Assembly: GCA_019636695.1 (NCBI GenBank)
Contig: JAHBXD010000001.1
Span: 613,661 to 677,660, forward strand
DNA: 64,000 nucleotides
DNA from: Phycisphaeraceae bacterium
GTDB lineage: Bacteria; Planctomycetota; Phycisphaerae; Phycisphaerales; UBA1924
Direction: 5' to 3'
The translations under genes were made by a program, and so were the position numbers. Positions 39,810-40,193 of the stretch are shown one piece after another. The notes below the pieces were generated by a model. The model was not told the origin of the DNA. It saw only the letters and a list, made by a program, of their open reading frames with translations, and did no database searches. Within the stretch, counting starts at the first letter, position 1. Each line of letters begins with the position of its first letter.

Positions 39810-39838
39810 TTGCACGAAGGTTGTCCGAACTGGATAAT
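39810..39838 (+). promoter_or_regulatory. Promoter of the intergenic RNA unit
   Basis: TTGCAC 39810-39815 and GATAAT 39833-39838, spaced by 17 bases. The -10 matches consensus at five of six positions, the -35 at three. Transcription would begin near 39845, in the 644-base spacer between astD and the rhomboid gene. Confidence 0.5.
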
Positions 39839-40011
39839 GCGATATCACGAGGGTTCGCTCCAGCCGCGGTTGCTGCGAATGACTTTCGTGACGACCGGGT
39901 TTTCCCGGGCGGTGTGCCCTAGGCGACGGCCTAGGGGAAAGGAGCCTGGCGCCGGACCCGTACAGCGTCCGAGGCGGCCGGGGAGGCCTTTCGAAAGGAG
40001 GTGATCCAGTG

Positions 40012-40047
40012 ATGACATGTGACTGTACGAGAGGGCTGCGTAGCTGA
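40012..40047 (+). CDS. Eleven-codon leader-like ORF behind a maximal Shine-Dalgarno sequence
   Basis: Reads MTCDCTRGLRS and stops at TGA 40045-40047; a GTG at 40009 gives one extra residue. The preceding GAAAGGAGGTGATCCAG (39993-40009) is a perfect complement of the usual last 17 bases of bacterial 16S rRNA. The ORF is followed by the partly exclusive hairpins and the terminator. Translation is likely on these grounds, but nothing shows that the peptide itself matters. Confidence 0.4.
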   Translation: MTCDCTRGLRS

Positions 40048-40101
40048 CCGTCGCCCGACGGGGCTGCGGAAGCGCAGTCCTCAGCAGGAGCTTGCTCCGA
40101 G

Positions 40102-40137
40102 GACCGTCACTCCGATATGGGGTGGCGGTCTTTTTTT
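40102..40137 (+). terminator. Strong intrinsic terminator of the RNA unit
   Basis: A 12-base stem (40102-40113 with 40119-40130, three G-U pairs), loop GATAT, followed by seven T (40131-40137). One of the clearest intrinsic terminators in the window. Confidence 0.88.
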
Positions 40138-40144
40138 CAGCAGA

Positions 40145-40193
40145 GGCAATGGGCAACAGGCAATGGGCAATAGGCAACAGGCAATGGGCAATT
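40145..40193 (+). repeat. Seven tandem heptamers GGCAAYN
   Basis: Seven consecutive 7-base units: GGCAATG, GGCAACA, GGCAATG, GGCAATA, GGCAACA, GGCAATG, GGCAATT. The tract starts eight bases after the terminator and lies in the leader region of the rhomboid gene. The remaining spacer up to 40393 is purine-rich with no gene. Confidence 0.85.

Follow-up and report, generated by a model that had tools for sequence, protein, structure and literature searches.

SgrS, Spot 42 and rnTrpL, the last encoding the 14-aa peTrpL, are short independent RNAs with a translated ORF (PMC10117765, PMC7298713), similar in length to the one described here. The CC2171 sRNA (RF01867), found in Caulobacter and other Alphaproteobacteria, is also an independent small RNA, whose model ends with a terminator; its short ORF, reading MSHCHQ... 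with lineage variants, is opened by a ...GAAAGGAGGTGATCCAGTG element, in which a complement of the 16S rRNA tail is joined to a GTG codon. A pseudoknot, a reading frame of 10-15 codons and a single gene copy are features of tmRNA (RF00023), another structured RNA. In Staphylococcus aureus, the helix formed between Shine-Dalgarno (SD) and anti-SD sequences continues past the CCUCC core in the direction of the start codon, at sORFs and at GUG starts (PMC13009471). The Rhodopirellula-1 RNA motif, from Planctomycetes and Proteobacteria, is classed as probably cis-regulatory in the motif's published description, which lists no Rfam accession for it (Weinberg et al. 2010, PMC2864571).

The RNA considered here partly resembles each of these systems. 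It lies in a 64,000-nucleotide stretch of a Phycisphaeraceae bacterium genome (hereafter the window), where an initial annotation had proposed either a new structured RNA or an attenuator of the downstream rhomboid and trpF genes. The CC2171 model gives 27.4 bits in the window and 25-31 bits in its relatives, below the gathering score of 75; the value of about 27 bits arises because CC2171 contains the same 16S-complementary GTG element. CC2171, however, has no P2-P4 domain or pseudoknot upstream, and its peptides are unrelated to the planctomycete ones. Models built from the planctomycete RNA score alphaproteobacterial loci at the level of the SD only (15-22 bits), and those loci lack the planctomycete structure; the loci of Alphaproteobacteria, Myxococcota and Krumholzibacteriota, which may or may not be homologous to the planctomycete RNA, reach only such SD-level scores.

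Compared with SgrS, Spot 42 and rnTrpL, structure and SD are here built around the ORF, no biosynthetic operon lies downstream, and the peptide is not conserved phylum-wide. The S. aureus cases are mRNAs or uORFs of the ordinary kind that gain a few extra pairs, whereas here a complement of the whole tail is embedded in a conserved structured RNA. Unlike tmRNA, the RNA possesses an SD and a start codon, ends with a terminator and has no detected tRNA-like domain; identity with tmRNA was rejected, as ARAGORN finds none in the window, Rfam gives no match at threshold and the genome carries its bona fide tmRNA elsewhere (C1:41907-42257, 137 bits). 6S RNA (RF00013) was also discarded, with no match above threshold in the window or the genome. 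As for the Rhodopirellula-1 motif, which was compared by description only, its host groups are the two in which the SD element occurs.

No Rfam family reached its gathering threshold in the window or in the relatives, a permissive search returning only weak CC2171 matches through the SD segment, and a literature search found no publication with these sequences or peptides. From these relations to known RNAs, namely the absence of an Rfam family at threshold, the SD-based nature of the CC2171 match, the lack of the planctomycete fold in alphaproteobacterial loci and the separate tmRNA of the genome, we class the RNA as a putative new family within the broad group of small RNAs that carry a translated ORF, unusual in design and possibly distinct from the Rhodopirellula-1 motif. 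Thus the first of the two options initially proposed is strongly supported, the RNA being conserved, covarying and provided with its own promoter and terminator signals.

Occurrence in Planctomycetota

Simple DNA comparison detected similar sequence in 34 of 61 genomes, counting the one that holds the window. A covariance model of the 155-nt core of the RNA (R1) matched 132 of 150 family genomes, with one copy in almost every case, and also other orders and classes of Planctomycetota. When broadened with members from these orders and classes (R2), the model matched at E<=1e-4 in 66 of 392 genomes sampled evenly over the phylum. Detection is patchy outside the family; the strict filters of large searches drop weak matches.

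Transcription Signals and Gene Neighborhood

The features of the locus are collected in Table 1. The promoter and the 12-bp terminator with seven T, both described in the initial annotation, are present, and their counterparts recur in the homologues: a promoter-like pair (TTGNNN-N15-19-NA[TC][AG]NT) occurs at the equivalent place in 64 out of 76, compared with 12 of the 217 control windows, while an intrinsic terminator follows in 77/77, 96-171 nt 3' of the SD. A simple promoter/terminator pattern scanner detected neither signal in the window; both were accepted nonetheless, because the comparison of homologues supports them. Conservation of the two signals points to an independent transcription unit, one mark of a dual-function sRNA, and we infer from the sequence that the RNA is transcribed as a stand-alone gene.

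Table 1. Features of the RNA locus, in positions of the window.
Feature	Start	End	Strand	Description and basis
Promoter	39810	39838	+	TTGCAC (39810-39815), 17-nt spacer, GATAAT (39833-39838); read from the sequence
Whole RNA, about 294 nt	39844	40137	+	Runs from a start predicted by the -10 box to the end of the predicted terminator
P1, 5' hairpin	39845	39891	+	TCACGAGGGTTCGC..GCGAATGACTTTCGTGA; predicted in the minimum-energy fold; GCGACGACC on the 3' side conserved
P2	39895	39908	+	CCGGG/CCCGG hairpin, apex variable; helix 1 of A2/A3
P3	39917	39936	+	CCCTAGGC-GACG-GCCTAGGG; helix 2 of A2/A3
P4	39945	39982	+	Two stems, CCTGGC/GCCGGG outside and CCGGA/GTCCG inside; GTACAG in the apical loop; helices 3 and 4 of A2/A3
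Pseudoknot, 5' strand	39959	39965	+	P4-loop segment CGTACAG; partner strand at 40023-40029
Extended SD	39994	40009	+	AAAGGAGGTGATCCAG; same as the antisense of the genome's own 16S rRNA 3' end
Mini-ORF	40009	40047	+	GTG..TGA, 12 codons, MMTCDCTRGLRS; TGA at 40045-40047; conserved ORF length
Pseudoknot, 3' strand	40023	40029	+	CTGTACG inside the mini-ORF (codons 5-7); covariation
P6	40033	40080	+	GGGCTGCGT (40033-40041) with GCGCAGTCC (40072-40080); covariation, arms permuted
Intrinsic terminator	40102	40137	+	12-bp stem, GACCGTCACTCC (40102-40113) paired with GGGGTGGCGGTC (40119-40130), 5-nt loop, seven T (40131-40137); in the minimum-energy fold

The attenuator proposal, by which the RNA would be a cis-acting leader of the genes that follow, draws on its position 256 nt upstream of the start of the rhomboid protease gene, on the same strand, and on the three-base overlap of the last hairpins, which does exist in this one sequence; the rhomboid gene is followed by the gene for phosphoribosylanthranilate isomerase (trpF). 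However, relatives of the window's five neighboring proteins are found beside 0 of 76 homologous RNA loci, and the downstream gene is variable, the commonest one (threonine-dehydratase-like, identity read off the protein sequence) being common to only 17/77 loci. The terminator, moreover, is kept at every locus, and the antiterminator pairing matching the overlap, between the 3' arm of P6 and the 5' arm of the terminator, is no feature of the family and not above chance (cognate arms 10.5, permuted 10.8, with 962/1000 permutations at or above the cognate value). A cis-regulatory role on rhomboid-trpF is largely refuted and must be considered extremely improbable.

Upstream, the window has an aldehyde dehydrogenase gene (astD-like), whereas 48 of the 77 family loci have a gene for a znuB-like ABC-3 metal permease (identity read off the protein sequence) on the same strand. 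The RNA might hence be a transcriptional companion of znuABC-like zinc-uptake genes, its Cys codon(s) sensing metal or cysteine; CxC is indeed found in about half of the family peptides, and this neighborhood, which could point to metal or cysteine physiology, counts against the ribosome gating proposed below. Yet the permease is missing from 29/77 loci, the window included, the RNA has a promoter of its own, and Cys-free peptides exist in other classes, so that this role appears improbable.

Directly 3' of the terminator, positions 40144-40192 of the window hold an array of seven-base units (A/G)GGCNNN (AGGCAAT GGGCAAC ...), and heptamer arrays of other unit sequence lie near the RNA at loci L017, L008 and L204.

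Secondary Structure and Pseudoknot

The hairpin-dense character of the unit, noted in the initial annotation, is borne out by its minimum-energy fold, which beats 200/200 dinucleotide shuffles (-153.9 vs -126.9 +/- 5.2 kcal/mol, z -5.2); the relative L007 likewise folds better than its shuffles (z -5.5). Covariation analysis also confirmed that hairpins P2-P4 and P6 are conserved in relatives. In an alignment of 80 family sequences (A2), 96.3% of the cells are paired and 24 of the 25 core pairs show compensatory changes, none of 500 shuffles reaching any measure, and shifting the partner by one column collapses the pairing. In the alignment of 42 sequences across classes (A3), compensatory changes affect 25/25 core pairs (0/500 shuffles). 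A2 and A3 were fitted to the structure, which favors it; the slid and shuffled controls nonetheless score much lower, and compensatory changes were present even in the initial MAFFT alignment. The RNA can be regarded as almost certainly real.

Among the single helices, P2 has 91.7% (A2) and 90.4% (A3) of cells paired, with compensatory changes in 5/6 and 6/6 pairs, respectively; in both alignments the corresponding figures are 99% and 8/8 pairs for P3, and 91-98% and 11/11 pairs for the helices of P4. P6, which is outside the covariance model, was tested separately: its cognate arms score 21.99 vs 20.85 +/- 0.17 for permuted arms, a value that 0/1000 permutations attain. This helix encloses GCCC-GACG-GGGC (40053-40064), and its 5' arm coincides with codons 9-11 of the mini-ORF.

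A further pairing, absent from the initial annotation as was the 16S complementarity, is a pseudoknot between the apical loop of P4, 5' of the SD, and codons 4-7 of the mini-ORF; in the window, GUACAG pairs with CUGUAC. Cognate loop/ORF pairs score 13.69 vs 12.59 +/- 0.24 when permuted (0/2000 permutations, 67 distinct pairs), and compensated variants include GTACATG/CATGTAC (L220, L236), CGTACAA/TTGTACG (L253), GTGCGCA/TGTGCAC (L016), GACAA/TTGTC (L235) and AGTCACG/TGTGACT (L007); a few members, such as L011 and L245, have little loop/ORF pairing. Given these pairings, a ribosome translating the mini-ORF would have to open both the pseudoknot and, in P6, the 5' arm. The earlier suggestion that the fold depends on whether the mini-ORF is translated therefore stands in part, as the ORF is conserved and its codons constitute one strand of the pseudoknot and of P6, but not in the form of an attenuator.

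The Mini-ORF and Its Peptide

The first in-frame stop occurs after 10-14 codons in 76/77 family loci, against 9.1 expected from shuffled sequence. The three stop codons interchange (TAA in 43, TGA in 19 and TAG in 15 of the 77 loci), and the length differences correspond to whole codons, that is, 3-nt indels within the range of 10-14 codons. All 20 weak distant matches of R2 that were read carry an SD followed by a start codon, and their frame closes after 10-14 codons; 19 of these matches come from genomes not used to build R2, and since the model ends before the stop codon, their ORF represents an independent check. For L275, which has CTGGGAGGTGATCC as its SD, the ORF was identified in the sequence by eye. 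By this comparative evidence the mini-ORF is very probably translated, as is typical of a dual-function sRNA.

The family consensus peptide is M-x-x-x-D-C-T-K/R-G-L-R-x, with the motif D-C-T-x-G-L well conserved within the family. A 10-14 residue peptide could thus be the active product of a small mRNA or dual-function sRNA, whose fold only tunes translation; SgrS/SgrT and Spot 42 are the models for such a role. Of the 53 family members with 12 codons, 52 retain Cys, all 53 retain Gly and 51 retain Leu, some of the codons varying synonymously (ACG/ACC/ACT/ACA, CTG/CTC/TTG), and DCT-G-L recurs in other classes. However, these nucleotides also build the pseudoknot and P6, a constraint that by itself accounts for much of the conservation, and many other classes keep the ORF with an unrelated peptide. 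Distant members have, for instance, MSKDDCRKRGGQG, MGSPNRRPSS, MTLNRRWLSL and MEYVCTSRRGGSA, unrelated to the family consensus; conservation of the translated frame therefore reaches further than that of the peptide. Probably the product is not the peptide itself, since ORF length, frame and stop persist in distant members but the peptide sequence does not, and since 10-14 residues would not leave the ribosomal exit tunnel before termination. An active peptide is accordingly an unlikely explanation, albeit one of some weight, and a role restricted to the family may exist, since D-C-T-x-G-L is well conserved there.

Complementarity to the 16S rRNA Tail

The sequence AAAGGAGGTGATCCAG and the G that precedes it form a 17-nt contiguous complement of the genome's own 16S 3' tail; from the position of helix 45, we take this match to cover the full single-stranded tail beyond that helix. 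The core GGAGGTGATCCA occurs in the genome only at this locus and in the rRNA. The final G of AAAGGAGGTGATCCAG doubles as the first base of the GTG start, which is located seven bases past GGAGG, an ordinary initiation spacing. In other classes the SD is sometimes shorter and ATG replaces GTG as the start, at a corresponding distance and without loss of the frame; SD and start codon move as a unit, as in L062, L066, L067, L070 and L075 (AAAGGAGGTG..ATG). Because of this shortening in some classes, full 16S complementarity is not universal.

Such a match raises the question of a 30S/16S antisense RNA, which would sequester small subunits (hibernation, quality control) or guide 16S 3'-end maturation, translation being incidental. 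A contiguous complement of the entire single-stranded tail, unique apart from the rRNA itself, speaks for such a function, but sequestration needs neither start codon nor frame nor in-frame stop, all of which are conserved, and some classes keep the ORF with a reduced match to the 16S tail. We judge an antisense function unlikely. A local CUCUUUC/GAAGGAG hairpin sequestering the SD, possible in many members, was dropped as a mechanism because it is absent, by eye, in some of them (L009, L014, L018, L020).

Proposed Mode of Action

The reading that we prefer, to which we give an even chance from the sequence comparisons, is that of a stand-alone, trans-acting structured RNA whose conformation would be gated by the ribosome and which would act on putative targets. 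The extended SD would capture the 30S subunit with very high affinity. As long as the pseudoknot is intact, codons 4-7 would be tied to the P4 loop and the subunit could not thread the message fully, and for this reason it would wait. Once initiation proceeds, the elongating ribosome would open the pseudoknot together with the 5' arm of P6 and come to a halt at a defined position within that hairpin, leaving the P4 loop, the 3' arm of P6 and flanking segments exposed. The RNA may thus exist in two states, free or 30S-captured on one hand and ribosome-occupied on the other, which would report the capacity for initiation or termination and act in trans on a putative partner.

The SD-GTG Element in Other Lineages

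A pattern scan of species genomes found the 16S-complementary GTG element mainly in Alphaproteobacteria, among the matches listed, with a separate short ORF in each lineage. In Rhodobacterales (members of L080-L196), this is an 18-codon ORF of the MSRVILERGVGTVGG type, again among the matches listed; here the element lies between a gene for a VUT-type transporter and arfB, coding for a ribosome-rescue hydrolase, in about 37 of 42 loci among the matches listed (identities read off the proteins). A translated leader or an sRNA upstream of arfB is possible in this group. A general link with arfB was rejected: it holds in Rhodobacterales only, the neighbors of other alphaproteobacterial elements vary, and the planctomycete loci have no such link.

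The same SD is found in Bradyrhizobium-type loci (L109, L115, L121, L122, L134, L144, L145, L162, L178, L179), with an almost invariant ORF of 14 residues, MSxxKRCHLAGIAR, below the Rfam CC2171 threshold where tested. At L136 (SAR92-cluster) and the similar L167, the extended SD and GTG lead, in about 10 codons or fewer, to a hairpin with a T run, and no stop codon precedes it; these loci are possibly non-stop mini-mRNAs. Loci of Lujinxingiaceae/Myxococcales and Krumholzibacteriia (L118, L131, L097, L160) combine the SD with ORFs of 14-15 codons, one of which has DCT as in the planctomycetes.

Significance

In a large bacterial family, an almost universal RNA kept in single copy thus sits unannotated in intergenic space, with patchy detection across the phylum, and the CC2171-type 16S-tail GTG mini-ORF element is far wider than a single Rfam family suggests, with separate ORFs in Rhodobacterales, Rhizobiales, Bradyrhizobium and others. 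Tentatively, Planctomycetota may possess an undescribed class of ribosome-gated RNA, in which a ribosome recruited by complementarity to the whole 16S 3' tail would open the pseudoknot and the hairpin, with the CC2171-type RNAs of Alphaproteobacteria as unrelated analogs. If this is true, bacteria would have evolved several times small RNAs that directly read the state of the translation machinery. The direct question is whether a free RNA can sense, through its fold, ribosome availability or the state of initiation and termination; it can now be tested, because the conserved elements all concern the recruitment of the ribosome and the translation of a very short frame.
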